Shown here one piece after another: positions 417-63,301 of a stretch of DNA of 64,000 nucleotides. The notes beneath the pieces were generated by a model, which was not told the origin of the DNA, ran no database searches, and saw only the letters and a program-made list of their open reading frames with translations. The stretch is from Apoda limacodes (lineage: Eukaryota; Arthropoda; Insecta; Lepidoptera; Limacodidae), in contig OX291544.1 in NCBI GenBank assembly GCA_946406115.1, forward strand, positions 26,367,521-26,431,520. The letters run 5' to 3'. The position numbers were made by a program, and so were the translations under genes. How positions within the stretch are numbered: the stretch's first letter is position 1; each line of letters starts with the position of its first letter.

Positions 417-513
417 ATTGGCCAACTCTCTCGTTTTTGGCAAACAGAAACACAAATGGAACATGAACAAATAAAGGATATGGACTTAAAGGAAATAGCT
501 ACTCCAAAAACAG
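417..513 (+). CDS. E2, phase 0 to phase 1 adapter exon
   Basis: The acceptor is TTTTTTTTAG and the donor CAG|GTATTG. The exon is open only in phase 0 (IGQLSRFWQTE...), since the phase-1 reading hits TAA. Its 97 nt shift the phase from 0 to 1, after which every exon is 1-1. It ends ATPKT plus a split Gly/Asp codon. Residues are acidic and Lys/Gln-rich. Confidence 0.7.
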
Positions 514-1298
514 GTATTGTTAAAAGAAAAACGTTTTGTGAAGAAAAGATTAATAAAGCGAAGATGTAATTTTATGATGTAGGAACCAAGGATGTTTAAG
601 TAGGAACTACAACTATATGTGGAAAATCTAATGAGAAAATAAATTTTCCTGTTTTTGGTTTTCAGTTTTATCAGGATTATTTTTCCTGTAATTAGTCATG
701 CCAATTTGGAAATTATGTTTTTTTATACATTCTGCTAAACAATGAATATACAGCTAAAAAAAGTTTATTTTTTTGCTTGTGAATTCTTAAATGTTAACCT
801 TTTTATATCCAACTTTTATTTAAGACTTAGGGTCAGCTTACACCGAGACGCGACTCGACGTCAAGCAGCTTTAAGATTTTTTGTTGTTAAGTTGGGCTGA
901 CCCTTTTTTCCCATGGGCCTTTTAATAGCATTTATTTGCAATATTTATTTTTCATTATAGTACCTAAGTTCTATACAAATCTATGTAAATGATCATTTAA
1001 ATGGTTATAAATTAAAGAAAATTTTATAAAAAAAAAATTTATTACTTTCTCCTAACAATTTGAATTCTTCGATGCCGTACCCAAACAAAATTTAAGTTCA
1101 TACTATGTAACATCCACTTCTATAAAAATAGAAACTAAGCTACGTCTTCGATAGATATTTTGTCGTAAACTATGAAATATATAAAAAAAACACAAGATAA
1201 CTTTTTTGGGCACTATATTACTTATTGTCTAAAGAACGTCAAAAATATTTCTAGGATTTTTTTCTTTGCAATATTTATAAATGGTATTTATTTTTTAG
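514..1298 (+). other. Intron 2
   Basis: This is AT-rich sequence with no gene or named repeat recognised. An ATG at 1172, with A at -3, is in frame with E3 through a hydrophobic stretch, and could mark an alternative first exon. Confidence 0.5.
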
Positions 1299-1427
1299 AC
1301 TCTTCAGATATTTATATTGATACAAAATGCAACTATGAACAAGATAATACAAAAGATGTCAGCGGAAAATCTTACGAAGAGTGTTTCTCTGAAATTCTAC
1401 AAAAGACTACAAATTTTGAAAAGGATG
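1299..1427 (+). CDS. E3, 43-codon exon
   Basis: The acceptor TTTTTTAG and donor G|GTACGT enclose 129 nt in phase 1-1. It encodes DSSDIYIDTKCNYEQDN..., acidic with two cysteines (CNYEQ and EECF). The same frame is open upstream to an ATG at 1172 through a hydrophobic run (RIFFFAIFINGIYFL). Most of that run is encoded by the intron's T-rich tract and may be accidental. Confidence 0.75.
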
Positions 1428-2053
1428 GTACGTAATCTATGTATACTAATATAATAAAAAAAGTAAAATTTGTTTGTTTGCATTTAGGGGTAAGCTCTTC
1501 ATCCATTGAACCGATTCCAAAAAATCTTTTACAAAATAATAGAAAACTACACTCTTTCATAGTCATAATAATAAGATTTCAGCCGAAGATCCTATTTATG
1601 GATTTGTAAATGAAGCCGGAAAAAGACGCTATTCATTTGCGTTGCGAATAACCATTCCAGTGACCTGACTTTTTGCGCTATTGAGAGATAATTCTCATGG
1701 GAATTATGTTTTTGCGAAGTACTATTTGTGACTACGTACGGTGTAAGTTGATTTTTAGCATCTAAATTGCTGTTCGGACAAAAAAGGATAAATATTACTC
1801 CTGTCCTGATCAAGAGTTTCTACGTTTCTTATTAGTAAAATAGAAAAAATAATGCATGTATAAAATCAGAAATACGTTCCCTAACTTTTCTTACCTTCTG
1901 ACCTTTTGTGTTTGGTCGCTAGTGCGGTTGTAAGTTCACACCATTTAAATGTAGCGACAGTAGTTCTGATTTTTGACCATCGTGTAAAAAAAGTATATAT
2001 CACTGTACAGCTGCCTAATAGTATTTACGTTTCGTTTTGCATTTTATTTCCAG
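1428..2053 (+). other. Intron 3
   Basis: AT-rich intron. About 1910-1970 resembles a repeat found again near 34980 ('tggtcgctagtgcggtt'). A weak exon-like stretch follows the AG at 1582 but has no phase-1 donor. Nothing else was seen. Confidence 0.5.
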
Positions 2054-2287
2054 TATGCGAATTTTCTGACACAACCAGCAGTTATTTGTTTTCTGATAAA
2101 GCAATCCACAAAGATGTACGCGGAAACAATCTAATAGAATGTACTGTTGATTACTGTCAACACACAGAGGAACACTGGGTAAATAGGGAAACTGGCGTTC
2201 CTACTGTTTTACCAGTACTCTCTGCGAGTAAAATGGGTGCCTCCTATATAAAATTGAATGTGAATTTACCTCAAAAAAAAAGTTCAG
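2054..2287 (+). CDS. E4, 78-codon exon, second largest
   Basis: The acceptor TTTATTTCCAG and donor TCAG|GTAAGA frame 234 nt in phase 1-1. It encodes VCEFSDTTSS... with three cysteines (one near the start, then ECTVDYCQH), a Trp, and an end KKKSSG. It is large and Cys-containing for this gene, so it may form a small folded part. No family was recognised. Confidence 0.8.
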
Positions 2288-3212
2288 GTAAGAAGCGAAC
2301 TATCGCTAACTTACTATTATTGTACAAAAATACTAAAGTTAATGCTGTTCAAAAGGCTGCTTTAATAGTAACTTTAAGTTATTTCATGTAGTAAACTCAA
2401 TAGAATTTAAGGACAAAACGCATACTTACAGCTGCTGTGAATAAAATGTGAATGTATATATATATATGTGCGCCTATGTCTACACTTAAGGCTATGGCAT
2501 ACTTTAGCAAAAGCGTACCGTTTCGACCAGTCTACAAAGATATAAAACGCTATTATAGCATACAAATAGACACAGCTACACGTACGATAGGCGCTAGCAC
2601 GTGACCGTACGTACGTCGATTTACTCGGTTTTTTATCGATATAAAATTCAAATATTTATTTAGAACTATGAAATCAGCAAATTCACTTGCTCATATTATT
2701 ATATATATTATGAAATAAGAATCAAGAGAAAATCACTTTTGGTTTTCCAAACAATTTGGATTAAAGCCCAAAAATACAGTGTTAGAAACATTTTTTTTTT
2801 CTAAATGTTTAAATAGCCAAATTATTACAATATAAGCAAATCCACTTAACTAAGGTTTGAACAACAAAATAAATATTTTTTCAGGTCAAAAAGTGTACTC
2901 AGGACTATAACAAATTAAACAAATTCTTGCAAGCTTACCTCGTTTGGGTATGCCATCATCTTAATTGTAATAAATAGCCTACGTTGTAATTTAAGTAACC
3001 AACAAGTTACCTACCATGATGAGTTTTGTTATGCTGTGTTTTTACTATTAAACATCAATATTTTTTTAAGGAACTAGGCAATTCATCGTTTATGTGGTTG
3101 CACTAGGAGAAATATTTTGACTATCTAAAGGAAAATCAGATTCTGCTGTTTTTATTTTCTTTAAATGTTCAATATTATAATTAGTAATTTAATATTACTG
3201 AAACATTTACAG
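2288..3212 (+). other. Intron 4
   Basis: AT-rich. An acceptor-like TTTTTTCAG near 2884 leads to only eight codons before a stop and has no usable donor. No repeat family was recognised. Confidence 0.5.
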
Positions 3213-3341
3213 GTAACAGAAAGAAAAAGTTAAGCAGAGTATTTCTAAGAAAAAAGGCCGAAGCAGGACAGATTGGGAATACTCGACTACAACACAGGAA
3301 ACGTCAGAAATTCAAAAGACTCGGGAAAAATCGACAAAAAT
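3213..3341 (+). CDS. E5, Lys/Arg-rich exon with weak donor
   Basis: After acceptor ATTTACAG the frame encodes a very basic stretch (NRKKKLSRVFLRKKAEAG...). A phase-1 donor AAAT|GTAAAA at 3342 makes 129 nt, and its final T pairs with CA of E6 to give Ser. The donor is weak. If unused, the frame continues to TAG at 3359-3361, making this a basic alternative C-terminus. Confidence 0.6.
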
Positions 3342-4215: not shown

Positions 4216-4356
4216 CATCAACTCTTGGTGTAAGTTATCCTTTGGCAATGCCTGTGACAAATCGACAAAGCTCTCGTAGTCGCTGGAGTCGGATATGGAA
4301 GGTCACAGGACGAAGGTGGACAATGTGGTCAAGATCTTATACATTACGTCGGAACG
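4216..4356 (+). CDS. E6, Arg/Trp/Ser-rich exon
   Basis: The acceptor ATTTTGTAG and strong donor ACG|GTGAGT frame 141 nt, phase 1-1. The second half alternates Arg, Ser and Trp (RSRWSRIWKVTGRRWTMWSR), a strongly basic and aromatic motif unlike the other exons. It could be a nucleic-acid, membrane or polyanion contact surface. This is inference from composition. Confidence 0.75.
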
Positions 4357-7226: not shown

Positions 7227-7325
7227 AGACCAATATAGCAATAACGGAAATGAAGACAGCAGCTACTAATGCAACAAGAAATCCAAACTTGTCTTGTCCA
7301 AACTCCTACATACGAATGGAAACTG
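7227..7325 (+). CDS. E8, 33-codon exon
   Basis: The first AG of TTTTAGAG is used, because the second closes the frame. Donor ACTG|GTATGT. It has 99 nt, phase 1-1, and encodes ETNIAITEMKTAATNATRNP..., ending CPNSYIRMET. Thr/Asn-rich with several possible N-glycosylation sites (NAT, NLS). Confidence 0.7.
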
Positions 7326-8845: not shown

Positions 8846-8917
8846 GTTATATAAGAACTCAAGAACCTAGACCAATAAAACTGGGGCCTTCTAGATACCC
8901 AATGCCTGAACCCTCAA
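8846..8917 (+). CDS. E9, 24-codon exon
   Basis: The acceptor TTCTTTCAG and consensus donor TCAA|GTAAGT frame 72 nt, phase 1-1. It encodes GYIRTQEPRPIKLGP... and ends MPEPS. Proline-rich. The final A makes the next junction codon AGA (Arg). Confidence 0.75.
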
Positions 8918-9916: not shown

Positions 9917-10054
9917 GACAAGAGTCGACGACACAGCGAAAAGAAAATATCCATGAGAACAAAGTCGGCTGTTTCCATGTTTACAAAGCAAATACAAGCA
10001 AAGCCTCCAAAAATAAGTGTAACAAATCACAAGTTCTCAAAGAAAACAAAGCAG
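9917..10054 (+). CDS. E10, 46-codon Lys-rich exon
   Basis: The acceptor TATTTTAG and donor GCAG|GTACAT frame 138 nt, phase 1-1. It encodes RQESTTQRKENIHENKVGCF... and continues NTSKASKNKCNKSQVLKENK. Basic, with two cysteines. Confidence 0.75.
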
Positions 10055-13793: not shown

Positions 13794-13898
13794 ACACTGA
13801 AAGTTTAATGATAACTGTAACGTCTCCGGGTACAGTCAAAGTGCTAGAGCCAGCTCAGATTGATGTCGAAACCCATACGGGTTCTACAACTGACTGCG
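13794..13898 (+). CDS. E12, 35-codon exon
   Basis: The acceptor TTTTTTGCAG and donor TGCG|GTAAAC frame 105 nt, phase 1-1. It encodes DTESLMITVTSPGTVKVLEP... and ends TGSTTDC. Thr/Val-rich. Confidence 0.8.
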
Positions 13899-15098: not shown

Positions 15099-15164
15099 AC
15101 ACTCAAATGACACCTGTGCCGTCCATTATAAAGAAAACACTTGGCATCTTTACATCTTGCTCTG
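15099..15164 (+). CDS. E13, 22-codon exon
   Basis: The acceptor TTTTTTATAG and donor TCTG|GTATTT frame 66 nt, phase 1-1. It encodes DTQMTPVPSIIKKTLGIFTS plus CS. Slightly more hydrophobic than most exons here. Confidence 0.7.
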
Positions 15165-15438: not shown

Positions 15439-15519
15439 GTATGTTGATGGCTGATAATGACCCTAAAAAATCTTCTCCTAGTAGACGACATCTAGCGCGT
15501 CTTCCTTTACAAGATACCA
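15439..15519 (+). CDS. E14, 81-nt exon
   Basis: The acceptor TGTTTTTAG and consensus donor ACCA|GTAAGT frame 81 nt, phase 1-1. It encodes GMLMADNDPKKSSPSRRHLA... and ends RLPLQDT. Confidence 0.75.
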
Positions 15520-16049: not shown

Positions 16050-16175
16050 TCCCAAAAATATTTGGTGCGTACTGTACATCCTGTGAACTCTGGACACCAA
16101 AAGAAAGGAATATTCCACAAAGGGAAATTCAGCAAAGTTCTTTTACCTCGATGGAAATAGAAAGTCTTCAAACAG
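16050..16175 (+). CDS. E15, 42-codon exon, second AG used
   Basis: The acceptor is ATTTCAGAG. The first AG leads to an in-frame TAG, so the second is chosen. Donor ACAG|GTGACT. It has 126 nt, phase 1-1, and encodes IPKIFGAYCTSCELWTPKER... with a CTSC pair, ending EIESLQT. Confidence 0.7.
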
Positions 16176-16270: not shown

Positions 16271-16351
16271 GTATATCCACACACAATTTTAATGACAAGG
16301 TTTACGTTAACGCTAGTTTGAACTGTATTCATCTCAGTGTTCATGATATGG
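16271..16351 (+). CDS. E16, 81-nt exon with Gly1/Asn6 pattern
   Basis: The acceptor TTTTTTTCAG and donor ATGG|GTAATA frame 81 nt, phase 1-1. It encodes GISTHNFNDKVYVNASLNCI... and ends HLSVHDM. Gly1/Asn6 match the exon family. NAS is a possible N-glycosylation site. Confidence 0.8.
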
Positions 16352-19592: not shown

Positions 19593-19939
19593 CATTTATA
19601 AATGTATTTGGCTAATACTTGTAGGTACAGATGCAGAGTGTAATGGCGATGTCACAGAAAATACCCTTTTGACTGTTTGCACAGGTACTTGATCATTCTA
19701 TTTAACAAATAACTTTACATTAGCAAAAACACTACGGACTACGGAGTATAACTATTAATATGTTAATCCAATAGTTAATCTATTGAATGTATAGTCCAAT
19801 AGCTAATCTATTGAATGTATATTCCAATAGCTAATATAATTATGTTATGTTCTTTTTCCATATTATTTTTTTTTTGTAGAAATTGTCAACACAACTGCAC
19901 TGAACGCATTATCTCCAGTTTCATCTGAAGACCATACGA
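19593..19939 (+). repeat. Segmental duplication, copy 1 (347 bp)
   Basis: It matches 20689-21035 at an offset of 1,096 with only about one difference seen ('aatagctaat' against 'aattgctaat'). It contains E18 and the start of the alternative exon 19880-20124. Three 30-bp sub-repeats ('aatctattgaatgtata') lie at about 19763-19838. Confidence 0.9.
19625..19684 (+). CDS. E18, 20-codon exon (duplicate of E19)
   Basis: The acceptor ATACTTGTAG and donor ACAG|GTACTT frame 60 nt, phase 1-1. It encodes GTDAECNGDVTENTLLTVCT. It is identical to E19, so a transcript could carry one or both copies. Confidence 0.75.
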
Positions 19940-20688: not shown

Positions 20689-21035
20689 CATTTATAAATG
20701 TATTTGGCTAATACTTGTAGGTACAGATGCAGAGTGTAATGGCGATGTCACAGAAAATACCCTTTTGACTGTTTGCACAGGTACTTGATCATTCTATTTA
20801 ACAAATAACTTTACATTAGCAAAAACACTACGGACTACGGAGTATAACTATTAATATGTTAATCCAATAGTTAATCTATTGAATGTATAGTCCAATAGCT
20901 AATCTATTGAATGTATATTCCAATTGCTAATATAATTATGTTATGTTCTTTTTCCATATTATTTTTTTTTTGTAGAAATTGTCAACACAACTGCACTGAA
21001 CGCATTATCTCCAGTTTCATCTGAAGACCATACGA
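20689..21035 (+). repeat. Segmental duplication, copy 2 (347 bp)
   Basis: The second copy of 19593-19939 contains E19 and the first part of E20. Here the sequence continues into an intact E20 with donor, so this is probably the ancestral arrangement. Confidence 0.9.
20721..20780 (+). CDS. E19, 20-codon exon (duplicate of E18)
   Basis: The acceptor ATACTTGTAG and donor ACAG|GTACTT give the same 60 nt as E18, phase 1-1, two cysteines (DAECNGD and TVCT). Confidence 0.75.
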
Positions 21036-21077
21036 AAAATTTATCCAAAGACTGTAAGAAAAATTTAAGCCCTTCAG
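20976..21077 (+). CDS. E20, 34-codon exon
   Basis: The acceptor TTTTTTTGTAG and donor TCAG|GTGAGA frame 102 nt, phase 1-1. It starts EIVNTTALNALSPV and ends NLSKDCKKNLSPS. Its first 20 codons are duplicated at 19880. Confidence 0.8.
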
Positions 21078-21365: not shown

Positions 21366-21461
21366 AGCTCAACAGACAAGATGCTGATGCGTTGAAAAAC
21401 AATTTAAGGACAGAGTTTTTGAATGAATTCCACCTACCTGAACCAGTTACGATGTGTTATG
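21366..21461 (+). CDS. E21, 32-codon exon
   Basis: The first AG of ATTTACAGAG is used; donor TATG|GTAATT. It has 96 nt, phase 1-1, and encodes ELNRQDADALKNNLRTEFLN... then LPEPVTMCY. Acidic and helix-favouring. Confidence 0.75.
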
Positions 21462-22728: not shown

Positions 22729-22800
22729 GATCCAATGCCACAAATCACAATATTGAATGCCAAAATCTTACTTCTCAAACGAAAAATTCTGGACGTACAG
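22729..22800 (+). CDS. E22, 24-codon exon with Gly1/Asn6 pattern
   Basis: The acceptor TTTACCCAG and donor ACAG|GTAGAT frame 72 nt, phase 1-1. It encodes GSNATNHNIECQNLTSQTKN plus SGRT. Gly1/Asn6, one cysteine, two NxT sites. Confidence 0.75.
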
Positions 22801-23003: not shown

Positions 23004-23084
23004 GAATAAATTATTTGAATGAATATACAAGCAAGCAAGACATGGAACAGTGCCATAAAACAAAGCCAATACCAATTTATTACG
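23004..23084 (+). CDS. E23, 81-nt exon with Gly1/Asn6 pattern
   Basis: The acceptor CGTTTTCAG and donor TACG|GTAAGA frame 81 nt, phase 1-1. It encodes GINYLNEYTSKQDMEQCHKT... and ends KPIPIYY. Confidence 0.8.
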
Positions 23085-23725: not shown

Positions 23726-23806
23726 GGACTACTACTAAAAACAGTGATATAAATGGATGTCAGCAAACTAAACAAAATAATAGTAAAGCCTCGCTACAAC
23801 ACAGAG
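23726..23806 (+). CDS. E24, 81-nt exon with Gly1/Asn6 pattern
   Basis: The acceptor is CAAAAACAG, a weak pyrimidine tract; the donor AGAG|GTAAGC is strong. 81 nt, phase 1-1, encoding GTTTKNSDINGCQQTKQNNS and then KASLQHR. Asn/Gln-rich. Confidence 0.7.
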
Positions 23807-24156: not shown

Positions 24157-24237
24157 GTATATCAGCTTTAAACATGAGTGAACAATTTTCTTCTCGCTCT
24201 AACACGCACCGTTTACGCACCAGTTTTAGTGACGACG
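24157..24237 (+). CDS. E25, 81-nt exon with Gly1/Asn6 pattern
   Basis: The acceptor CTACTTTTCAG and donor GACG|GTAAAT frame 81 nt, phase 1-1. It encodes GISALNMSEQFSSRSNTHRL... and ends RTSFSDD. Ser/Arg-rich. Confidence 0.8.
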
Positions 24238-24350: not shown

Positions 24351-24479
24351 GTATCGACATTGGAAACATTGGAGTGAACAAGGAACAAAATGTCGTTCAC
24401 CTGCAGCTTCCCATGCGCAGTTTCACCTGCATGCCTAACATGTCAATACACATCATTCTTCATCAGGCTTACCAAAAGA
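24351..24479 (+). CDS. E26, 43-codon exon, seed of a local repeat
   Basis: The acceptor CCTTTTACAG and donor AAGA|GTAAGA frame 129 nt, phase 1-1. It encodes GIDIGNIGVNKEQNVVHLQL... then RSFTCMPNM. Gly1/Asn6. A diverged copy of its first 90 nt lies at 24624-24718, and its last bases plus donor recur as an array to about 25140. Confidence 0.7.
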
Positions 24480-25140
24480 GTAAGAACAAAATTCTTCACA
24501 CATGAGTCAGCATCAACTTGCCAAAAAAGTAATAACGAAATCGCCATAAATATTACCCTGAATCTGACCGACTAAATAAGTAAAACAGATTTTACACATA
24601 CACAAAAACCCCTACCAAAGCAGATATTGACACTGAAAACATTGTAGTGAACGAAGATCAAAATGTTGTTCACCTGCAGCTTACCATGCAAAGCTTCACC
24701 TGCAAGCCTAACATGTAAACCTAAAAAATAATAGCAAAACACTCATGAATCTGCTTCAGACCTACCAAACAAGTAAAAAAGAAATCTATACACATAGACC
24801 TGCATTGGCCATATCGTACAGTAAGAACAAAATCAGCACACACAGGAATCGACATCAGCTCTACAAATAAATCAAAACAAAATCGCTACAAAAATCAACC
24901 TACAGTCAAATATAGAACACAATAAATAACAATCTTAATGATGCTGATAAAAATCCTTTTAAACATTAACCTACATTATTCAAATTTCCACACATTTTGA
25001 CCTACAAGAGACTCACCAAAAAGAGTATCATAAAAATCACACATTGACCTGCATCAGCCGTACCAAAAAAGTGAAAACAAACAAAACAAACCACCATACA
25101 TAAAATATAAACCTTCTCAACGCTACCAAAAAATTAAGAA
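24466..25140 (+). repeat. Degenerate ~50-bp array of E26 3' end and donor
   Basis: Imperfect units such as 'taccaaaagagtaagaac', 'gccaaaaaagtaataacg', 'accaaacaagtaaaaaag' and 'taccaaaaaagtgaaaac' recur. Each carries a donor-like GTAA or GTGA after an A-rich exon end, with a 'cctgcat/cttcag' part between them. Confidence 0.6.
24624..24718 (+). pseudogene. Diverged duplicate of E26
   Basis: After 'accaaagcag' the phase-1 frame reads about 30 codons, DIDTENIVVNEDQNVVHLQL and so on to KPNM, parallel to E26 with conservative changes, then TAA at 24716-24718. The acceptor has no good pyrimidine tract. It may be a dead exon or a rarely used alternative end. Confidence 0.55.
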
Positions 25141-25491: not shown

Positions 25492-25593
25492 AAGTAACTA
25501 ACAACCGTGATCGTTCAGACGGTGAGCAGGATCTTGAATCTTCACCACCTCTACAAACCACGTGGGAAACAGAAACACCGCCTATTGTATATG
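25492..25593 (+). CDS. E27, 34-codon acidic exon
   Basis: The acceptor TACATTTTCAG and donor TATG|GTATTA frame 102 nt, phase 1-1. It encodes KVTNNRDRSDGEQDLESSPP... and ends ETETPPIVY. Confidence 0.75.
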
Positions 25594-26189: not shown

Positions 26190-26270
26190 GAACTTCTGAT
26201 TCTAACTCTGTTCACCCATCTACTTTGAATACTAGCCCGCGTCACTCTCAACGATGTTTTATCAATACTG
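26190..26270 (+). CDS. E28, 81-nt exon with Gly1/Asn6 pattern
   Basis: The acceptor TACCTTTCAG and donor ACTG|GTATGT frame 81 nt, phase 1-1. It encodes GTSDSNSVHPSTLNTSPRHS... and ends QRCFINT. Confidence 0.8.
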
Positions 26271-27677
26271 GTATGTAATTTTATGACTAAAGTAGTTAAA
26301 AAAAGTGTGAGTCCGATTCGCGAACGAGGGTTCCGTACCACCACAAAATACACGAGCCCGACTTGCACTTAACCGGTTTTCTTTGTTTGTTGTTTTACCT
26401 AAGAGTTATCATTATAATTATTCTCAATTAAAAGCTTATTTGTGCAACTAAAACATCTTTTAATGTATGGAGGAAGGCTCCAATAAATTTTTTTTTTTTA
26501 GTTTTTTAGATCATTTGTTAAGGAATCTACTATAATATCACATATTCTGTGAAATTTTCGGGCTTCATCTACTTCAGCCTAAATTATAGAGCCTATTAAA
26601 GACACACAGCGTGGGCTTAGTAATAGAATAGAATATTAATTTTAAGAAAATATTACACACTTTCATATGACACATGTTACAGGATCGGTTTTAGTACCTA
26701 GAAACTCAATTCCAGTATCTTTATAGAAGACTAATTATATAATAAAGGTTTGAGGTCATTAGTAAAATAATAATAAAGTATCTACTTATAATATTTGCAA
26801 CTAGTACAATCTACACACATATTAACAAATTTGTTTTAAAACCAATACTTTTAACAATTAGTGTTATTTATCCAGAGAGCAGTATTCAGTAAAAAGTTTA
26901 GTAAATTTAAAAAAATAATAACATATAACAATAAGGCTCCGTTGGCACCCTTTGGGTACGGTACTCTAAAAATCCTACTAAATTCCATTTAATAATTATT
27001 TGGAATAACTGGATAAATAATAATCTGGAAAATTCTTTAATTAACTAGCTATTTCTCGCGTCTTAACTCTTAAAGAATTAGAAATGTCACATAAATTTGA
27101 TACCCTAAGAATGATCCTACAGGTGCAAAATACTTACAAATTTTACTTTTGCATTTTGTTCATTTGTTGCTTTATTACCTTAATAATTGCCAAACGATTT
27201 GTAAGTAACTTTCACAAAAACGTAGTCCATACATTAATTATTGGTATAATCTTATGATTTATATAAGACTTCTGTGGAAATTGGGTTATAGTTAATTCTG
27301 AATTTGAACTACATACTTTTAACCTTTATTAACGTCTCTAGACATTAGACATAACATTCTTGAATATCATCTGCTGATACTTGAATACTAAATATTTTAA
27401 CTTCAGTATATCTATGGACATTTATCATAACATCCCGAATAACATCGTGATGTACTACAATACTAAATATTTTTAACTTCAGTATTTCTATGGGCATTTG
27501 ACGTAAGATTCTTGAATATCATCGTGCTATAATTAAAAACTAAATATTTTAACTTCAATATCTCTATAGAAATTAGACATAACATTCTCGAACATCATCG
27601 TGCTGTACTGAAATAATAAATATTTTAACTACAGTATGTCTATGGACATTATTCTAATGACCATCTTTCCTTTTCAG
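26271..27677 (+). other. Intron 28
   Basis: 26300-26385 is a dispersed repeat end ('acttgcacttaaccggtttt'). About 27345-27655 holds four ~77-bp tandem copies with 'actaaatattttaacttcag' and 'tatctctatggacatta'. The rest is AT-rich. Confidence 0.6.
27345..27655 (+). repeat. ~77-bp tandem repeat, 4 copies
   Basis: Each unit contains 'acattcttgaatatcat', 'actaaatattttaacttcag' and 'tctatggacatt'. Each therefore carries a weak AG acceptor-like site just before E29. Confidence 0.75.
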
Positions 27678-38623: not shown

Positions 38624-38677
38624 AAACCACTGGTACGCCTCCAAAAACTACACCTCCCGGAACACCTGAAAAAAAAA
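38624..38677 (+). CDS. E39, 18-codon Thr/Pro exon
   Basis: The acceptor TTAATTTCCAG and donor AAAA|GTAAGA frame 54 nt, phase 1-1. It encodes KTTGTPPKTTPPGTPEKK. Mucin-like Thr/Pro composition with likely O-glycosylation. Confidence 0.8.
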
Positions 38678-39838: not shown

Positions 39839-39949
39839 AATCTTCAGGTACTTCAAGAGCTACACCTCCCAGATCTACACCTCCTGGAACTACACCTCCT
39901 GGAACTACACCTCCTGGAACTACACCTCCCGGAACACCTGGAAAATCAA
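39839..39949 (+). CDS. E40, TPPGT-repeat exon
   Basis: The acceptor TTGCATCCTAG and donor TCAA|GTAATA frame 111 nt, phase 1-1. After KSSGTSRATPPRS come tandem copies of TPPGT (four, from near-identical 15-nt DNA units 'ctacacctcctggaa'), ending PGKS. A homologous run is in E39. Mucin-like. Confidence 0.85.
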
Positions 39950-40901: not shown

Positions 40902-40943
40902 AAACAGGCACTTCACCAGGGTCCACACCCCCGACGACTCCAG
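40902..40943 (+). CDS. E41, 14-codon Thr/Pro exon
   Basis: The acceptor GACTACTTTCAG and donor CCAG|GTATAC frame 42 nt, phase 1-1. It encodes KTGTSPGSTPPTTP. Confidence 0.75.
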
Positions 40944-41328: not shown

Positions 41329-41373
41329 GTAAAGAAGTACCACAGACAAGGAGTCTAACGACATCAGAAAAAG
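41329..41373 (+). CDS. E42, 15-codon exon
   Basis: The acceptor TTTTGCCATAAG and consensus donor AAAG|GTAAGT frame 45 nt, phase 1-1. It encodes GKEVPQTRSLTTSEK. Confidence 0.7.
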
Positions 41374-42341: not shown

Positions 42342-42383
42342 AACCCAGCAACACGAGCAAAGTGATTTTATCAAAAGGCCAGG
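42342..42383 (+). CDS. E43, 14-codon exon
   Basis: The acceptor TTGTTTTTCAG and donor CAGG|GTAGGT frame 42 nt, phase 1-1. It encodes EPSNTSKVILSKGQ. Confidence 0.75.
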
Positions 42384-43078: not shown

Positions 43079-43135
43079 AGGGCTCTTCAACAAGTCAAAT
43101 CATGCCGGTTTCCCAGGACGAAGATGAAAATATCG
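43079..43135 (+). CDS. E44, 19-codon exon
   Basis: The first AG of TTAATTGCAGAG is used; donor ATCG|GTTAGT. It has 57 nt, phase 1-1, and encodes EGSSTSQIMPVSQDEDENI. Acidic end. Confidence 0.75.
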
Positions 43136-43772
43136 GTTAGTAATAACAATATCTTCTACTGTACAAGCATCTTTTTTAGTATTAAATGACGCTATTGCAA
43201 TAGCTACTTTTCTACTTTCATGAATTTAATACCTTTTAGGCTGGTCGCATATTTCGAAAAAAAAATTCAAAAGAAAAATTTTCGCGCACGCGTGGACGAG
43301 CCTGTACTAAAATTCTTATCTACAAATACAATGTACGTACTCACACACTAGCTTTGTTAAATCTTTGGAGTACTTATTTTTCGTTTGCCACAACCTTAAT
43401 ACACCGTAATTCTTTCATACATATACTGCTAATTTAACTGAATATATGTTGCAGCGAAGCCTAAGGTCCGCCTTACTGCAAGAGTACAAGCCTCTCCATG
43501 TAGAAGAGATCTTAGGCCAAAGTCCATCGCGCTGTCCCAGTGCGAATTGGCGGAAGGTAGTCGAGCTGTCAAAGTTTGAAGCCCAAACTTCTTTCTTTGC
43601 TTATATGACAATATAGCTAGGACTGACGATTTAATGTGCCTCCCAAAGCACTGTTGAATTATATTGGACTATAAACAATGCGTCACTAAATTATTGAAGG
43701 TTATTTTGCAGCTTAAATTTAAATTCCGATAAGTATATCAATATTGTTTTTACGAACTTATTTTTTTTCCAG

Positions 43773-43829
43773 AACCAACCACAGCAAGCCAAGTTATTAA
43801 AGCACCCGAATTAGAAGCCCGAGTATCCG
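43773..43829 (+). CDS. E45, 19-codon exon
   Basis: The acceptor TTTTTTTCCAG and consensus donor TCCG|GTAAGT frame 57 nt, phase 1-1. It encodes EPTTASQVIKAPELEARVS. Confidence 0.8.
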
Positions 43830-46641: not shown

Positions 46642-46683
46642 AAACCTCCCTATCACAAAAATATAGCGGACTCTTCAAACCAG
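46642..46683 (+). CDS. E46, 14-codon exon
   Basis: The acceptor ACTTTTTCAG and donor CCAG|GTAATT frame 42 nt, phase 1-1. It encodes ETSLSQKYSGLFKP. Confidence 0.7.
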
Positions 46684-47287: not shown

Positions 47288-47362
47288 GCCCTCTCATTCA
47301 AACGCCTACTCTTACCACTAAAGGCATTTTTACCGAACCACCAGACATTCTGGATGTAGCAA
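47288..47362 (+). CDS. E47, 25-codon exon
   Basis: The acceptor TTTTTTTTTCAG and consensus donor GCAA|GTAAGT frame 75 nt, phase 1-1. It encodes GPLIQTPTLTTKGIFTEPPD plus ILDVA. Confidence 0.8.
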
Positions 47363-47493: not shown

Positions 47494-47580
47494 TATCGCC
47501 TTCGGAATCTTTAATAAACTGCAATCGGCTTGAAGAAGCTACCTTGACGGACCCCATACTTTACAGATATGTTGCGCTAG
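47494..47580 (+). CDS. E48, 29-codon exon
   Basis: The acceptor TTATTTTTCAG and donor CTAG|GTAATT frame 87 nt, phase 1-1. It encodes ISPSESLINCNRLEEATLTD... and ends YRYVAL. Confidence 0.75.
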
Positions 47581-48237: not shown

Positions 48238-48282
48238 AATCATATCTAAAAGCTGCAAAAGAAGAATGGAGATCGAGAAACA
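48238..48282 (+). CDS. E49, 15-codon exon
   Basis: The acceptor ATCATTTATAG and consensus donor AACA|GTAAGT frame 45 nt, phase 1-1. It encodes ESYLKAAKEEWRSRN. Charged and helical. Confidence 0.7.
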
Positions 48283-49217: not shown

Positions 49218-49307
49218 TTGCGTGCAGAGGTATGGTTCTAGAGTGCATAGAAAAGCACGGACCCACCGAATCACAAAGCTATTATAAATACAAACCAATT
49301 ATCAGAG
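49218..49307 (+). CDS. E50, 30-codon exon
   Basis: The acceptor TTTTTTTCCTTTAG and consensus donor AGAG|GTAAGT frame 90 nt, phase 1-1. It encodes IACRGMVLECIEKHGPTESQ... and ends YYKYKPIIR. An earlier possible donor, AGAG|GTATGG at 49230, would give a 12-nt version. Confidence 0.75.
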
Positions 49308-50319: not shown

Positions 50320-50397
50320 ATATATCACAATACACGCAGTCTGATATTCCACCACTGAGGGATCAATGCACTGTTATCAGCCCTGAGGAGTCTACTG
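50320..50397 (+). CDS. E51, 26-codon exon
   Basis: The acceptor TTTATTGTAG and consensus donor ACTG|GTAAGT frame 78 nt, phase 1-1. It encodes DISQYTQSDIPPLRDQCTVI... and ends SPEEST. Confidence 0.8.
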
Positions 50398-51305: not shown

Positions 51306-51371
51306 ACGAAGACACTGATGAAGAAAGGCAAAAAGGAGTGTCTGGGGTTTCAAAAGCGCGGTCTATTAGAG
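51306..51371 (+). CDS. E52, 22-codon acidic exon
   Basis: The acceptor TTTGTTTAACAG and donor AGAG|GTAACA frame 66 nt, phase 1-1. It encodes DEDTDEERQKGVSGVSKARS plus IR. Confidence 0.75.
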
Positions 51372-51953: not shown

Positions 51954-52019
51954 AATCTCAGCAGAGACCATCACAAAGAATATCAAAACAAGCATCGTCA
52001 ACTTTGCACCCGAAACAAG
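51954..52019 (+). CDS. E53, 22-codon exon
   Basis: The acceptor TTTTCATTACAG and donor CAAG|GTATTT frame 66 nt, phase 1-1. It encodes ESQQRPSQRISKQASSTLHP plus KQ. Confidence 0.75.
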
Positions 52020-52733
52020 GTATTTTTTTGAGCCACAGTTCTGAAAACCATTTCCCTTTGATTTTTTTTTAAATGTGAGGTATCAAATTAAATGGCTTCA
52101 TAAGCCGTACCTAAAAATATACTATACTATTACCTTTCGACCACTTGTTTTCTAAAAATCCAAAAGGTATTTTCAAAACATACCAAGTTTGGGCTCGTCC
52201 AGATAGATGACGGCTTAGTAAATTTTGGTAAAATATACCATAAATGATAGATAATATCCTCATATTTAACCCCAAGAAAGTCATTTTCAAAATATTTTGA
52301 TTTATACATTTTTTTTATTTTTACAATGTCTTCTTTAAACTTGAGTATTTTTTGAAAATTATAATAAGTGTAATCGTCATGTACCTACTGGTAAGTACTT
52401 GGAATAAGCAAAAGGGGATAGTGATGATTCGTTTGATACCCCCTCAAATAGGGTTGTTCCATCTAACAACAAAGTAGCAGAATTGTTATCGGTTCGCTTT
52501 TCATTAGCTTTTGTTAGCAAAATCTGAATTTTAGCGTTTCCTTTAAGCAGTTTTCTTACGAAATATAACAAAAAAGACCCATGTCGGAAAGTGGATCGTC
52601 CTTATCACCGGAAACCACGAATTTTATTACGATTCGATGCCTAGCATCCGTGCTCGATAAAATGAGAAATAAACCCTTGAGTATATACCAGACTTTCAAG
52701 CTTATCAGTCATCAACTCATCACACTCTTACAG
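52020..52733 (+). other. Intron 53
   Basis: AT-rich, about 710 bp. No gene or repeat family was recognised. Confidence 0.45.
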
Positions 52734-52817
52734 AGTTGACGCCGACTCCGAGTCGAGTGGCTTCACCAGTAAAATCAACAACTAGGAAGTCCGAAGACAT
52801 TAATGATACAAGGACAG
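52734..52817 (+). CDS. E54, 28-codon exon
   Basis: The first AG of CTCTTACAGAG is used; donor ACAG|GTAAAA. It has 84 nt, phase 1-1, and encodes ELTPTPSRVASPVKSTTRKS... and ends DINDTRT. Confidence 0.75.
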
Positions 52818-53302
52818 GTAAAATGAACTGTATTCTAGATAAATATTTTCAAAAAAAAACACATTAAACACAATATAATATAATATTTAATACTGTTGAA
52901 TACTAAAACCAAATAACTTAGAGAGCGCCCTGACGGTAAGTTAGTATATCATCTTACATACTGGCGAATGTTCACGAAATTTAATTAGGGCTGTGGAATT
53001 TTGTAAACAAGGTAACTGACAAAAACGTGTACATGGACAATACTTCACCGTAAACCAGTCACATAATCTTCCTGTATGTTAATCAGGTTTAGCTTCATTG
53101 TCATAAACGAGTTTTTCGCAAAGATGTTCTTCTTATTGTATTCTTAGTACTTTGCGAAGAAATGATGAAAAACACATAAAGTTCACATGTAAAATAGATT
53201 CCACCTATTTCACCATATTCATATCACAATGAAATGGTCTAGGTTTTATACCACTAAAGTAGCAAACAAGCTCACCCGTGGATCCGCCTATCTATTATTA
53301 CT

Positions 53303-53712
53303 GCAAGGAAACTGCTAGTCTAAGATCAACAATTAGGAAGATATAGCTCTTTCTAGTTTGACAGCTGTCATCAAAAATAAAGATCTTGATGAGATCTGTC
53401 ATTTCTGCAAGGAAACTGCTAGTCTAAGATCAATAGTGAGGGAGATATAGCTCTTTCTAGTTTGACATCTGTCATCAAAAATAAAGATCCTGATGAGATC
53501 TATCATTTCTGAAAGGAAACTGCTAGTCTAAGATCAATAGTTAGTGAGATATAGCTCTTTCTAGTTTGACAGCTGTCATCGAAATAAAGATCTTGATGAG
53601 ATCTATCATTTTTGCAAGTAAACTGCTAGTCTAAGATCAATAGTGAGGGAGATATAGCTCTTGCTAGTTTGACACCTGTCATCAAAAATAAAGATCTTGA
53701 TGAGACCTATGG
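53303..53712 (+). repeat. ~104-bp tandem repeat, 4 copies
   Basis: Each unit contains 'aaactgctagtctaagatca', 'gagatatagctctttctag' and 'tcatcaaaaataaagatc'. Copies differ at only a few positions, so the array is young. Confidence 0.9.
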
Positions 53713-55746: not shown

Positions 55747-55749
<3 letters not shown>

Positions 55750-56090: not shown

Positions 56091-56135
56091 TATCATTTAC
56101 TGGTAGTGGAAATGCTCCTCTGGGATCAAAAACTG
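56091..56135 (+). CDS. E55, 15-codon exon
   Basis: The acceptor ACATTTTTACAG and donor ACTG|GTATGT frame 45 nt, phase 1-1. It encodes VSFTGSGNAPLGSKT. Confidence 0.75.
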
Positions 56136-58130: not shown

Positions 58131-58163
58131 AAGTCATGAAGGACTCGCCTACTGTCCGAAGTG
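58131..58163 (+). CDS. E56, 11-codon exon
   Basis: The acceptor TTTTTTTGGTACAACAG and donor AGTG|GTAACT frame 33 nt, phase 1-1. It encodes EVMKDSPTVRS. Confidence 0.65.
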
Positions 58164-60262
58164 GTAACTATGTAAAACCTTTATTTTCTACAAATAATTC
58201 TACAAAAAACAAAATTCTTGAACAATCCTTATACTTTATTAATGTTAATACTTTTGGAAATATTAAGTTAAGAAAGTTAATTCTTTAAATATCGTTTCGA
58301 ACAAACAAATGAAAACCAATAAATTAAAATAGGCCGGTTTTTATTATTTGTACTTTAGAGTTCACGCTATTTTTCACTGCAAGTTGAAAGTTAAATGTGT
58401 TACTGTTTTTACGATGGATCAAAAACAACGAAAATTTGTTTCTTGTATAAGGATTCTGCAAACAAATGTTTTACTGTGTTGTGAAGACTCTATTCCCCAG
58501 GGGAAGATAAATTATAAGATACGTGTAGTTCGAAAATACAATTTAATTATAGCTTCCTATACGATTTCAATCTCTATTATGCCATACACAATTTTATATC
58601 TTCATTTTGGAAATTATTCATTTTGCCGTCTTTTCTTTTTTTGACGACCGTATTGCAATTTTCACCCCAGTCGACTTTATTATCGCCACAGTTGGCAAAT
58701 CGTGGTACGATGAAATTAAGTTGTAAAATTACGACAATCTATGTCATCTCCATATATTTTCCGAATATACAAATTACGGAAAAGAAAATTCAATAAGGCA
58801 AAAAGGCCAATCCGCAAAAAATCAAGGTCTTCGTAGTTCCTATTAAGTTAAGCAGAATTATAGTACCTTCTGTGTGATTTATGGGGTAACTCACAAACCG
58901 TCGACGGATATTCTAGATCAAAATTCCTTATATGCTTTCCATTTGATCGAATCCGATCAAAAACATAGTTTCTTATATATGGTCTACGCAGATAAAGTTA
59001 CACCAGGTAAAATAATTAATTATCTTTATTTATTAAAAATTTCAAATTTCTATTTTTTATCTCTTACTTTAAGTAAATCTCAACCAGACTGACTTTGAAT
59101 ATTTTTCGATCTGTCATCTTTTTAAAATCAGATTTAAAAGTCTGTTGACGTCACTCAGTATGGCATTCCATGCCTGTATGGATATCGAATTTTACAATAA
59201 TTTTGACATAAACACGCAAAAGGGTAATCTAAAGCTACGTACACACTACATATTATAAATTAAAATAATTCACTCGCTACATCTTTAATACTATTGCTAT
59301 ATGGCGTTGTACTGGTAATTTAAAATGGCAATAGCTTCGGCCCGTCTCACAGTTGGCCGATTTTTATTATTTGCTGTTATACTTTGTAGTTTTCAGTATT
59401 TTTTTATTGCAAGTTTGAAGTTTTTTTGTATAACTTTTAACGATAGAGCAAAAACAACGAAAATGTATGGGCCCCCCTTAAACTTTGATTATAACACATG
59501 TTCTGTAAAAAATTCAGGCTTCTGCCCATTTCGGTCTAAAAGATAGAGCCTTTTAATGGTCAAACAGACAGACGGACTGACAGACAGACAGCTTAGGTTT
59601 AGTAATAGGGCTCCTAAACAAAGAGAGGTGCTGACTTTTTTTCCTTGTTGAACACCCTATCTCTTGAAGGTAGAGAGTTTAGGCCATACTCCGCCACGCC
59701 AGTAAACACTGCATGGAGAAACGTCTACTTTACTGCCGCCATAGCTGACTTGCCTTAACGGCTGCTGTCATGCTCATATACAACAGCCAGGACCGACAGT
59801 TAATGTGAGCAGAAATAAACTAAGCAAAATGTGCCACTAGGCGATCACCCATCCAATGACTGACCACAGCAGACATTGCTCATCTAAGCATACCGTTCCG
59901 GTTCACGAATGTAACTAGGTAACGTGCTTCTCCCAATATTACTTAAGACAATAGAAAACAAATAAATGAATAAAAAAAAAATATATACTGCTCCCAAACT
60001 AAGCAAATCTTTTTCTAAAGATACCAGATAACGGATACAAATACACATATACTTTTTCGTATTATACATAGAAAACATTTAGATCAAGGAACCCACGCCC
60101 CTCAGTTCAACAGACAGGTGAGCCACGGAGCCGGTTTAACATAGTTGTAGAGTAAAAGAAAGGTAAATATATACGGGAAAAACAAAAAAAAAAAAAAGGA
60201 AGATGGTCTTGAAATTTAAAGAATTGTTTTTAAATCAGTCATTAGATATTTTCTATGTACAG
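58164..60262 (+). repeat. Intron 56, two related repeats and a SINE
   Basis: 58330-58640 and 59340-59600 are copies of one family ('tttttattatttg', 'caaaaacaacgaaaat'). 59640-59870 is another repeat. 59985-60138 is a minus-strand SINE with head 'gtgggttccttgatct' and body 'tttgtatccgttatctgg'. Confidence 0.6.
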
Positions 60263-60319
60263 GAACAGCGTCAACGAAGCCTGTTGCGGTCAATGTTATC
60301 TCACAGTTCATAAGCAGTG
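60263..60319 (+). CDS. E57, 19-codon exon
   Basis: The acceptor TTCTATGTACAG and consensus donor AGTG|GTAAGT frame 57 nt, phase 1-1. It encodes GTASTKPVAVNVISQFISS. Confidence 0.75.
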
Positions 60320-60758: not shown

Positions 60759-60848
60759 GGTACGCACGCAATTCACGGCTGCATGCTGAAACACAACTTG
60801 AGTATTTTAGCAAAAGTTTTGATGTCATGGAAAAGGTAAACCAGAAAA
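60759..60848 (+). CDS. E58, 30-codon exon
   Basis: The acceptor TTATTTATCATAG and consensus donor AAAA|GTAAGT frame 90 nt, phase 1-1. It encodes GYARNSRLHAETQLEYFSKS... and ends VMEKVNQK. An internal GTAAAC at 60835 is out of phase and not used. Confidence 0.75.
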
Positions 60849-61368: not shown

Positions 61369-61437
61369 GTGTAACAACGTCTGTGTCTCGGAGTTCTCTG
61401 GTACCTGAAGATCCCGTAAAAACGTTACCCACAAGAG
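61369..61437 (+). CDS. E59, 23-codon exon
   Basis: The acceptor TACATTTGTCCCGACAAG is chosen because the upstream AG at 61330 runs to TAA. Donor AGAG|GTAAGT. It has 69 nt, phase 1-1, and encodes SVTTSVSRSSLVPEDPVKTL plus PTR. Read-through of the donor stays open 40 more codons to a hydrophobic end (FIFDIIIVNIGFLYY). Confidence 0.7.
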
Positions 61438-61878: not shown

Positions 61879-61977
61879 GTCAAGTGGCCCACATACACAG
61901 TATGAGGTTATTGGATTCGCAGACCTTTTTAAAATTCCGAAATGAAAGCTTTTTTGATACACTAAGAAAAAAATCAA
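61879..61977 (+). CDS. E60, 33-codon exon
   Basis: The acceptor TTCAATTACAG and donor TCAA|GTGAGC frame 99 nt, phase 1-1. It encodes GQVAHIHSMRLLDSQTFLKF... and ends DTLRKKS. The frame is open upstream to an ATG at 61834, so a late alternative start is conceivable. Confidence 0.7.
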
Positions 61978-62615
61978 GTGAGCCTATTCAAAGTATTATA
62001 AATAAAGTTACAGTTTAATATTTTATATCTTATTATTAATGTAAAGTACGCAAAAGGGACATAAAATTTTAACAAATTGTTAAAAATCTATTAACCAAGT
62101 ATATAAAATATCAAATTTAGAATTAAATCTTGGAATAAGTAAGGCTATAAATATTTATTAGCCATTTTACTATTTTTTGGATATAATGTCTTTTATTTTA
62201 ATTTTGTTTTGTATACCGCGTGTAACAAAAGGACTAAGCGGACATTTCCAGTAAGTGTTATAAGTATGTAGTCAATTAATATAGGATTAAATTCCAAACT
62301 TAAAAAAAAATCTTTTTGAACCAAAAAAAAATTATAACGCTAAAATCAGCGGTTGGGTTGAACCCCAATATAGTAATAACCTTTGTCTTAAATTCTGTTT
62401 TTACTATCTTTTCTTAATATTTACATTCTTTAAAGATATTCTGGTGATCTAATTAATGACCCTAATTTTGTCACAGCCTGTATATACGTTACATACTTTA
62501 TATTGTAAATATAACAAATAAATGTGTAGTACATTATTAATATAACTTACCTAATCCAATCATAGTAAAAAAATAGTTCTTATTTAATAATATTTAGAAA
62601 TATTTATTATTTCAG
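61978..62615 (+). other. Intron 60
   Basis: AT-rich with several AATAAA-like motifs. No gene or repeat was recognised. Confidence 0.45.
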
Positions 62616-62894
62616 GTACTACACCACCAATAGTACTCTTGCGAAGAAAAAATAAGAAATCTAAGACAATGCAGTCACCTAAAGATTCTGAAAATTTAGA
62701 CCCTAAATTGTCTGAAAGTTTAGATCCTAATCTGTCTGAAAGTTTAGATCCTAAACTGTCTGAAAATTCAGATCCTAAGCTGCCGGAAAATGTAGACCCT
62801 CAATTGTCCAAAAATTTAAAGGACAATTTGTCTGGAAATTTGGAACCTAAATTGTCTGAAAAGATAGTCATTCAAGAACCCTGCGATGCCCTAA
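62616..62894 (+). CDS. E61, largest exon, 8-residue tandem repeats
   Basis: The acceptor TATTATTTCAG and donor CTAA|GTAACT frame 279 nt, phase 1-1. It opens STTPPIVLLRRKNKKSKTMQ, then has seven tandem octapeptides: SENLDPKL, SESLDPNL, SESLDPKL, SENSDPKL, PENVDPQL, SKNLKDNL, SGNLEPKL, and ends IVIQEPCDAL. The 24-nt DNA units are clearly related. Acidic and probably disordered or coiled. Without the donor the frame reaches TAA at 62948. Confidence 0.85.
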
Positions 62895-62982
62895 GTAACT
62901 TCGCAGTTTACTGTATATTGTACAGACATAATATAAAATATTCATATTAAACCTATAATTTATGTACTTTCAACTGTTGCAG

Positions 62983-63087
62983 GTCTCCAAAAATCAATTT
63001 CAAGAATAGGTTATATGGCTCATTCCGACATAAGTTTACGTAAAAAAAAATACACAGATGGATCATCAGTACAAACAGCCTCTAAAG
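62983..63087 (+). CDS. E62, 35-codon exon
   Basis: The acceptor CTTTCAACTGTTGCAG and donor AAAG|GTAAAA frame 105 nt, phase 1-1. It encodes SLQKSISRIGYMAHSDISLR... and ends SVQTASK. Confidence 0.8.
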
Positions 63088-63140
63088 GTAAAACAATATT
63101 TATACTACTAATTTTAGAGATAACCTAGTTATTTTCACAG

Positions 63141-63301
63141 AGTACGATCCTGAACCGCTTTATTGTTACAAGTCTTTTTTGAACAATACAAGAGAAGGGG
63201 TAGAGCAAAGCCTGTCGGTCCAGCTAGTCAAATGGTTAATGATGAACTGCATTAAAAAGCGTCAACTTGATAACCTTATTGCAAACGGTTACTATTTTTA
63301 G
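63141..63301 (+). CDS. E63, terminal exon with stop
   Basis: After a 53-bp intron (acceptor TATTTTCACAG) the phase-1 frame encodes 53 residues to TAG at 63299-63301: EYDPEPLYCYKSFLNNTREG..., then SVQLVKWLMMNCIKKRQLDN and ANGYYF. It is amphipathic and more structured-looking than the rest, with two cysteines and no membrane span. This gives the long isoform a soluble C-terminus. Confidence 0.75.

Follow-up and report, generated by a model that had tools for sequence, protein, structure and literature searches.

A train of phase-1 exons in the genome of the moth Apoda limacodes and the predicted gene that contains it

Is a long series of short exons, all separated by introns of the same phase, a property of the DNA or of the way in which the exons were picked, and if it is real, how might such a gene have arisen? 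The question is raised by a stretch of 64,000 nucleotides from the moth Apoda limacodes (Lepidoptera, Limacodidae; GenBank assembly GCA_946406115.1, contig OX291544.1, positions 26,367,521 to 26,431,520 of the forward strand), hereafter the window. We report that the exon train and its phase are a statistical feature of the sequence. The train most likely belongs to a single predicted protein-coding gene of about 81 kb, in which all introns downstream of the first coding exon are in phase 1. The best reading is that of a fast-evolving disordered protein whose gene has been enlarged by exon gain within phase-1 introns. The sequence supports a single gene-like train of exons, uniformly in phase 1, in this lepidopteran genome; among the matches listed in a literature search, titles and abstract beginnings revealed no published lepidopteran micro-exon or uniform-phase gene.

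Statistical evidence for the phase-1 train

The first-pass annotation of the window had described more than 60 exons with phase-1 introns and considered the pattern non-random. The train holds up: we find 60 internal exons of class 1-1 (i.e., flanked by phase-1 introns on both sides) between positions 1,299 and 63,087, preceded by an exon at 417–513 that ends in phase 1. All internal exons of the window are multiples of three, 12–279 nt in length, and the joined chain contains no stop. The exons were hand-picked with phase 1 and an open frame in mind, and hence it is the controls, rather than the chain, that carry the argument.

For these controls, we used a dynamic-programming scan that joins an acceptor, an open frame, and a donor into an exon, with introns limited to a single phase in each run. 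The splice-site models were our own, built from an insect consensus, and the codon model was trained on the chosen exons. The phase-1 scan of the plus strand of the window scores 577.1, compared to 87.2 for phase 0 and 72.9 for phase 2; the minus strand yields 71.0, 77.6, and 79.0. Twenty order-4 Markov simulations gave mean scores of 33–42 and a maximum of 72.7. As the codon model had been trained on the chosen exons, the scan was repeated on held-out sequence. With the exons below 32 kb used for training and the region of 32–64 kb for testing, phase 1 scores 205.8 versus 44.0 and 53.0 for the other phases of the plus strand and 23.8–28.4 for the minus strand. In the reverse arrangement, with training exons above 32 kb, including those beyond the window, the values are 203.5 versus 30.2 and 9.3 (plus) and 26.8–38.3 (minus). 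The excess persists when the codon model is removed altogether (109.5 versus 36.9 and 28.9 on the plus strand, and 12.7–15.4 on the minus strand). The claim of non-randomness is therefore borne out against other phases, the opposite strand, and simulated sequence, both held out and without codon preferences.

The preference for class 1-1 also emerges when the phase is left free. In a free-phase scan of positions 400–81,600, plus-strand exons are of class 1-1 in 40 of 41, 56 of 63, and 69 of 78 cases at penalties of 20, 18, and 16, respectively; the minus strand yields 1/7, 2/15, 2/29, and 9/84 at penalties of 20, 18, 16, and 13. Within the window alone, the loosest penalty gives 63 class 1-1 exons out of 156 on the plus strand and 11 out of 131 on the minus strand. 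A simple count of acceptor–donor pairs (at least 45 nt, open frame, summed site score above 5) shows 33 pairs of class 1-1 on the plus strand versus 3–12 in each of the other eight classes, and on the minus strand 2–7 pairs per class across all nine.

The predicted gene and its surroundings

The gene model was assembled by hand from the optimal chain of the phase-1 scan (the phase-1 optimum). In the window, 57 of its 71 exons were kept, some with moved borders, 14 were dropped because of weak sites, weak coding scores, or likeness to mobile elements, and four were added (starts at 3213, 16271, 24351, and 41329). The exons are as follows.

1–27, plus strand, possible end of a 5' untranslated exon with a GTAAGT donor (28), lacking an in-frame ATG and closely preceded by a TAA in the flank, weak
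417–513, plus, first coding exon, ATG 456, ends in phase 1, alternative acceptor 448
1299–1427, plus, internal 1-1 exon, alternative acceptor 1308
2054–2287, plus, internal 1-1 exon, sole genome match is itself
3213–3341, plus, internal 1-1 exon, very basic, GTAAAA donor, hand-added
4216–4356, plus, internal 1-1 exon, low coding score
5029–5097, plus, internal 1-1 exon, phase-1 optimum
7227–7325, plus, internal 1-1 exon, phase-1 optimum
8846–8917, plus, internal 1-1 exon, phase-1 optimum
9917–10054, plus, internal 1-1 exon, weaker score
10722–10802, plus, internal 1-1 exon, phase-1 optimum
13794–13898, plus, internal 1-1 exon, phase-1 optimum
15099–15164, plus, internal 1-1 exon, phase-1 optimum
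15439–15519, plus, internal 1-1 exon, phase-1 optimum
16050–16175, plus, internal 1-1 exon, uncertain, unusual AGAG acceptor
16271–16351, plus, internal 1-1 exon, absent from phase-1 optimum, added
19625–19684, plus, internal 1-1 exon, peptide identical to that of 20721–20780
20721–20780, plus, internal 1-1 exon, inside second tandem copy
20976–21077, plus, internal 1-1 exon, phase-1 optimum
21366–21461, plus, internal 1-1 exon, phase-1 optimum
22729–22800, plus, internal 1-1 exon, phase-1 optimum
23004–23084, plus, internal 1-1 exon, phase-1 optimum
23726–23806, plus, internal 1-1 exon, phase-1 optimum
24157–24237, plus, internal 1-1 exon, alternative acceptor 24166
24351–24479, plus, internal 1-1 exon, replaces 24421–24528 of phase-1 optimum
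25492–25593, plus, internal 1-1 exon, phase-1 optimum
26190–26270, plus, internal 1-1 exon, phase-1 optimum
27678–27746, plus, internal 1-1 exon, alternative acceptor 27687
27832–27924, plus, internal 1-1 exon, AAG acceptor
31584–31655, plus, internal 1-1 exon, phase-1 optimum
31839–31919, plus, internal 1-1 exon, phase-1 optimum
33297–33365, plus, internal 1-1 exon, weaker
33526–33594, plus, internal 1-1 exon, phase-1 optimum
34621–34632, plus, 12-nt internal 1-1 exon, good sites, length below what coding tests need
35808–35861, plus, internal 1-1 exon, phase-1 optimum
36535–36546, plus, 12-nt internal 1-1 exon, length below what coding tests need
38624–38677, plus, internal 1-1 exon, proline/threonine type, phase-1 optimum
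39848–39949, plus, internal 1-1 exon, proline/threonine type, 15-bp internal repeat
40902–40943, plus, internal 1-1 exon, proline/threonine type, from scan
41329–41373, plus, internal 1-1 exon, AAG acceptor, hand-added
42342–42383, plus, internal 1-1 exon, phase-1 optimum
43079–43135, plus, internal 1-1 exon, phase-1 optimum
43455–43556, plus, internal 1-1 exon, phase-1 optimum
43773–43829, plus, internal 1-1 exon, phase-1 optimum
46642–46683, plus, internal 1-1 exon, phase-1 optimum
47288–47362, plus, internal 1-1 exon, phase-1 optimum
47494–47580, plus, internal 1-1 exon, phase-1 optimum
48238–48282, plus, internal 1-1 exon, weak
49218–49307, plus, internal 1-1 exon, phase-1 optimum
50320–50397, plus, internal 1-1 exon, phase-1 optimum
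51306–51371, plus, internal 1-1 exon, phase-1 optimum
51954–52019, plus, internal 1-1 exon, phase-1 optimum
52692–52817, plus, internal 1-1 exon, phase-1 optimum
56091–56135, plus, internal 1-1 exon, phase-1 optimum
58131–58163, plus, internal 1-1 exon, phase-1 optimum
58992–59006, plus, 15-nt internal 1-1 exon, length below what coding tests need
60263–60319, plus, internal 1-1 exon, phase-1 optimum
60759–60848, plus, internal 1-1 exon, phase-1 optimum
61369–61437, plus, internal 1-1 exon, AAG acceptor
61879–61977, plus, internal 1-1 exon, phase-1 optimum
62616–62894, plus, largest internal 1-1 exon, 24-bp tandem repeat with SENLDPKL-type units
62983–63087, plus, last internal 1-1 exon within the window, phase-1 optimum
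63141–63301, plus, terminal exon of the first-pass annotation, without coding signal, AATAAA at 63361
64005–64028, 64905–65030, 68260–68319, 68722–68826, 69680–69778, 71007–71141, plus, downstream 1-1 exons, first part
73001–73084, 74075–74122, 74526–74573, 75445–75537, 76549–76668, 77804–77869, 80476–80568, plus, downstream 1-1 exons, second part
81260–81570, plus, terminal exon, coding score +17.3

The exons dropped from the optimum in the window start at 3776, 4412, 12184, 14478, 18320, 21829, 23223, 23424, 24421, 34802, 38742, 51120, 55221, and 60106, and those dropped at 64–81.6 kb start at 73410, 78162, 78451, and 78844. Strings from open frames elsewhere in the flanks recur in the pieces at 55221, 78451, and 78844, which presumably represent a retroelement. 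The acceptor at 16048, an AG two bases earlier, was replaced by 16050, as it runs into a stop in the frame of the chain.

The first-pass annotation had placed the end of the gene at the exon 63,141–63,301, which is probably wrong. Its 52 codons score -0.65 in the coding model, and among 416 comparable acceptors in introns, 20 likewise lead into a frame open for as long; the exon is probably spurious or a minor alternative end. Beyond it, the phase-1 scan of positions 63,310–82,000 scores 146.8 versus 47.6 and 22.3 for the other phases of the plus strand and 16–33 for the minus strand. The train thus probably extends outside the window by about 18 kb and ends with a stop near 81,570 (17.6 kb from the window edge), the exons at 69680 and 80476 being the least certain among those downstream. 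Blocks from 88 kb onward have no phase-1 excess.

The full model contains 75 coding exons, of which 73 are internal, all multiples of three, with lengths of 12–279 nt (median 81, mean 83.5 nt), and introns of 85–3,659 nt (median 871). The description of these as micro-exons fits only in part, as 13 of the 73 internal exons do not exceed 51 nt. From ATG 456 to the stop at about 81,570, the frame spans 2,154 codons and 74 junctions without an internal stop, although the exons were chosen for openness. Each of the 62 introns in the 63-exon chain that includes 1–27 and 63,141–63,301 has a GT donor and an AG acceptor. The codon split at 61 phase-1 junctions most commonly encodes glycine (21/61), followed by glutamate (12) and aspartate (7).

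At the other end, translation likely starts at ATG 456, as judged from the sequence. The 80 kb upstream have a slight phase-1 excess (174.3 versus 124.0 and 135.5 on the plus strand and 79.1–113.9 on the minus strand), which owes something to a few long exons of other genes. A 5' extension through phase-1 exons at -21,678 and -12,819 (both large) and at -3,825 (small) was considered and rejected. The exon at -12,819 is part of a separate three-exon gene (approximately -15,683 to -10,672) with its own ATG and stop, while the one at -3,825 is part of a decayed duplicate (approximately -6,078 to -3,711), and its splicing to 448 would create a stop. A search of 3.7 kb for a 5' exon bearing a signal peptide yielded 12 ATG exons with donor scores of 5 or higher, none of them hydrophobic.

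Several neighbours deserve mention. The small three-exon gene (approximately -15683 to -10672) encodes a basic N-terminus, and its introns likewise are in phase 1; its tandem duplicate (approximately -6078 to -3711) has frame breaks, and a Pfam search gave no match. A 297-nt exon of class 1-1 at -21678 to -21382 has a strong coding signal, with a single sub-threshold Pfam match. A cysteine-rich open frame at -8825 to -8475 is presumably CXC/tesmin-like and perhaps part of a mobile element. Downstream, at about 97.6–99.9 kb in window coordinates, there is an arrestin gene with an Arrestin_C match above the cut-off. Its relatives are named arrestin homolog or phosrestin-1, and the locus offers a synteny landmark for other Lepidoptera. 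The arrestin product, assembled with approximate exon borders, shares 94% identity with its counterpart in Hyposmocoma kahamanoa and 93% with those in Battus philenor and Cydia fagiglandana; identity to two caddisflies is 85–86%, and the lepidopteran record from Operophtera brumata likewise has 86%.

The predicted product and its relatives

The predicted product of 2,154 residues is rich in serine (12.3%), threonine (9.9%), lysine (7.9%), and proline (6.8%), with a mean hydropathy of -0.80 and 284 basic and 235 acidic residues, a composition that suggests disorder. Neither a signal peptide nor a membrane segment was detected by hydropathy, the only measure applied (top 19-residue value of 1.05, and -0.27 within the first 60 residues); for the signal peptide, this hinges on translation truly beginning at ATG 456 or in a different first exon no more than 3.7 kb away. 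Based on the composition and the missing signal peptide, the product would most likely be an intracellular disordered scaffold. It contains 48 SP/TP sites compared to 32.4 expected, as well as matches to four basic clusters, three KEN, and nine RxxL motifs, the latter three counts being given without a computed expectation.

No Pfam match was found over 2,070 of the 2,154 residues, and earlier searches of gene pieces gave at most sub-threshold matches. The terminal exon of the first-pass annotation, the sole part compared with PDB, had no match there. We further searched a database of 5.8 billion proteins, using a procedure that needs exact five-residue words and a similar total length. Residues 1–1,759 of the first model had no homologue among 4,404 candidates (E up to 0.01), nor did residues 1,550–2,070 of a 2,070-residue version when the 8,000 top-ranked candidates were scored (E up to 0.1). 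As a control, the arrestin query retrieved 2,824 proteins from the same database, and the 120 matches listed include nine named lepidopteran records (86–94%). Because exact words and similar length are required, a fast-evolving or split relative would escape this search.

Copies were sought in the 800 Mb of the genome (31 contigs), with only the best candidates scored, so that counts are lower bounds. No paralogue was found for the first 905 residues, all 30 genome matches lying inside the gene itself, including two tandem exon copies. Likewise, the exon 2054–2287 and the terminal exon each matched only themselves (1/1 in both cases), and both matches of the exons 62983–63087 and 63141–63301 were inside the gene.

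Proposed growth within phase-1 introns, rival explanations, and known systems

One trace of exon duplication is a very recent tandem duplication of 347 bp in the first third of the window.

19593–19939, plus strand, first 347-bp unit, at 99.7% identity with 20689–21035, containing exon 19625–19684 and the truncated exon copy
20689–21035, plus strand, second copy

It doubled one intact 60-nt exon (19625–19684 and 20721–20780) and produced a truncated copy of the next exon. In addition, a 99-bp stretch of exon 24351–24479 together with its border recurs at 85% identity in the following intron (24621–24719). Three consecutive proline/threonine exons at 38.6–40.9 kb are alike, with scores of 62, 50, and 47, compared to best scores of 37–39, and once 54, in shuffled sequence (six of ten runs shown); their likeness may reflect composition. 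No other exon pair scores above 37 except the recent duplicate, at 103.

Other repeats were noted in the introns. The intron stretch 24480–25130 contains short degenerate repeats around ACCAAAAAAGTAAGAAC, noticed by eye, and tandem arrays are located at 29254–30199 (63-bp units), 53290–53710 (104 bp), and 27341–27650 (76 bp).

We suggest that the gene would grow by gain or duplication of exons inside phase-1 introns. A gained exon would have to be of class 1-1 for the frame to survive, and each such exon would split its host intron into two phase-1 introns, preserving the rule. Moving an exon leaves the frame intact only when the exon is symmetrical, and class 1-1 predominates (PMC8001218); that paper makes the point for exon shuffling, whereas here folded domains are lacking. 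Growth of this kind could yield the uniform phase by itself, with no need for selection for isoforms. That exon gain is the general mechanism at this locus is what we infer.

Several observations weigh against this reading. The gene is read from DNA alone, from which we infer both its transcription and its status as one gene. At a penalty of 13, the free-phase scan assigns 77 of 117 exons to class 1-1 and 40 to other classes. At a penalty of 18, it misses the exact form of 26 of the 75 exons; with 49/75 recovered exactly, about one-third of the exons stand on weaker evidence, and some weak exons could be incorrect even though the train as such stands. Of the 74 donors, 34 match GTAAG, GTGAG, GTATG, or GTACG, and the other 40 do not. 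Only two exon pairs beat all six shuffled runs and two more beat five of six, and hence a duplication origin is invisible for most exons. Finally, the genome search in the second half of the gene covers the exons 62983–63301 and 81260–81567 only. On balance, we give a probability of roughly 0.6 to the reading of one lepidopteran gene of about 81 kb with a disordered intracellular product and a uniform phase acquired by phase-locked growth.

The strongest alternative, which we consider a tangible possibility and hold tentatively, is an ordinary insect gene, e.g., one for a nuclear or cell-cycle scaffold, whose orthologue here would have diverged so fast and be so disordered that sequence searches miss it; the exon pattern would then be old. 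The 48 SP/TP sites (about 32 expected), the four basic clusters, and the three KEN and nine RxxL motifs fit such a scaffold, as does the lack of a detected signal peptide; the empty Pfam search over 2,070 of 2,154 residues and the absence of a homologue from a database that holds lepidopteran arrestins speak against it. An orthologue of this kind may well escape searches that need exact five-residue words and a similar length, one of which scored the 8,000 top candidates. The alternative is also compatible with the growth proposed above, and our confidences are non-exclusive, since a diverged orthologue could have grown by phase-locked gain as well. More doubtful is a lineage-restricted gene built in place, in which intronic sequence would have been repeatedly recruited as coding under a simple phase-locking rule. 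Its product would be a giant intracellular disordered protein, and nearly all of the 73 internal exons would lack kinship with each other or with any known sequence.

The layout was initially taken to permit very many isoforms. A gene whose uniform phase is kept by selection for combinatorial exon skipping, yielding very many proteins, would have exons like these, all 73 internal ones being frame-neutral when skipped, and many donors depart from the common forms; in schistosome micro-exon genes (MEGs), exons that are mostly multiples of three are indeed paired with alternative splicing (PMC10526429). However, growth alone forces the same layout, which permits skipping and does no more, and the signal peptide of the secreted variable proteins used as comparison was not detected here. 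We consider this explanation unlikely.

Two genes in tandem, one ending at the TAG at 63,299–63,301 (AATAAA at 63,361) and the second spanning approximately 64,005–81,570, would account for the open 161-nt exon with its fair acceptor and the poly(A) signal that follows. Such a division is quite unlikely given the lack of coding signal in that exon (-0.65), the 20 of 416 equally open intronic acceptors, and the downstream train, which stays in phase 1.

A secreted effector of the bicycle/megacycle or MEG type, arisen in a lepidopteran lineage, would be consistent with the intron phase, which is that of bicycle genes, with the failure to find sequence relatives, and with gene and protein lengths like those of megacycle in Melanaphis sacchari, where 118 exons span about 100 kb and encode 2,092 residues (PMC9168663). 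It is highly improbable, as no signal peptide was detected at ATG 456 or in the 12 upstream ATG exons, the bicycle classifier gives z = -46, a single loose CYC-like match was found, no repeating unit was seen, and the exons are longer (median 81 nt). A decaying gene or a chance string of short open frames, suggested by the truncated exon copy and some weakly scored exons, is hardly credible with scores far above simulations and the minus strand, also when held out and without the codon model.

With about 73 symmetrical exons that correspond neither to folded domains nor to clear repeats, the locus allows exon gain to be tested against selection for skipping, the prediction being that close moth relatives should differ by whole in-frame exons. 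Automatic annotation has struggled with micro-exon genes (PMC10526429) and may miss or split a gene of this kind.

The first-pass annotation had pointed to aphid bicycle genes and schistosome MEGs as analogues, and the comparison holds in part. In bicycle genes, almost all internal exons begin at codon position 2, i.e., follow phase-1 introns, with about 17 exons on average (PMC9168663). Megacycle genes have more than 100 exons, about 2,000 residues, a secretion signal, and internal repeats, with salivary expression in three species (PMC9168663). The predicted moth gene thus resembles the aphid megacycle as a giant gene (in the aphid about 100 kb, encoding some 2,000 residues in over 100 small exons), whose exons should likewise start at codon position 2. 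It differs in that no signal peptide was detected and no repeating unit seen, and in its longer exons (mean 83.5 nt). The bicycle classifier, applied with the published coefficients and a cut-off of 0.72 (PMC9168663), also rejects it: the full model has z = -46.4 (probability of about 7e-21) and the version of the first-pass annotation z = -36.7, while a check with partly assumed inputs gave +7.9 (0.9996) for megacycle and +8.5 (0.9998) for a typical bicycle gene. Our own loose pattern for the CYC motif matches once in 2,154 residues; in megacycle too, the motif is described as not obvious (PMC9168663).

With schistosome MEGs, the gene shares short internal exons that are mostly multiples of three and long introns (PMC10526429, PMC7263636). 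MEGs comprise 10–20 exons of 6–81 bp and encode an N-terminal signal peptide that is constant; the longest of the aligned MEG proteins has 189 residues (PMC10526429). The likeness in exon size is partial, the median here being 81 nt, and the gene differs in its approximately 75 exons and 2,154 hydrophilic residues with no signal peptide detected. Three MEG isoforms are called disordered yet hydrophobic (PMC10399815), whereas the product here is hydrophilic. We do not class the gene as a bicycle or MEG member because the signal peptide expected of both was not detected and the bicycle classifier rejects it.

In titin, the PEVK region is encoded by many small exons of a single phase and is disordered. 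Unlike titin as a whole, the moth product gave no Ig or FnIII domain in the Pfam search, and its composition is rich in serine, threonine, and lysine. In class 1-1 exon-shuffled modular proteins (PMC8001218), the units are recurring folded domains, whereas here no Pfam domain was detected and exons show little similarity to one another. What the predicted gene has in common with these proteins, titin and projectin included, is the symmetrical class 1-1 unit, of which intracellular cases exist (PMC8001218).

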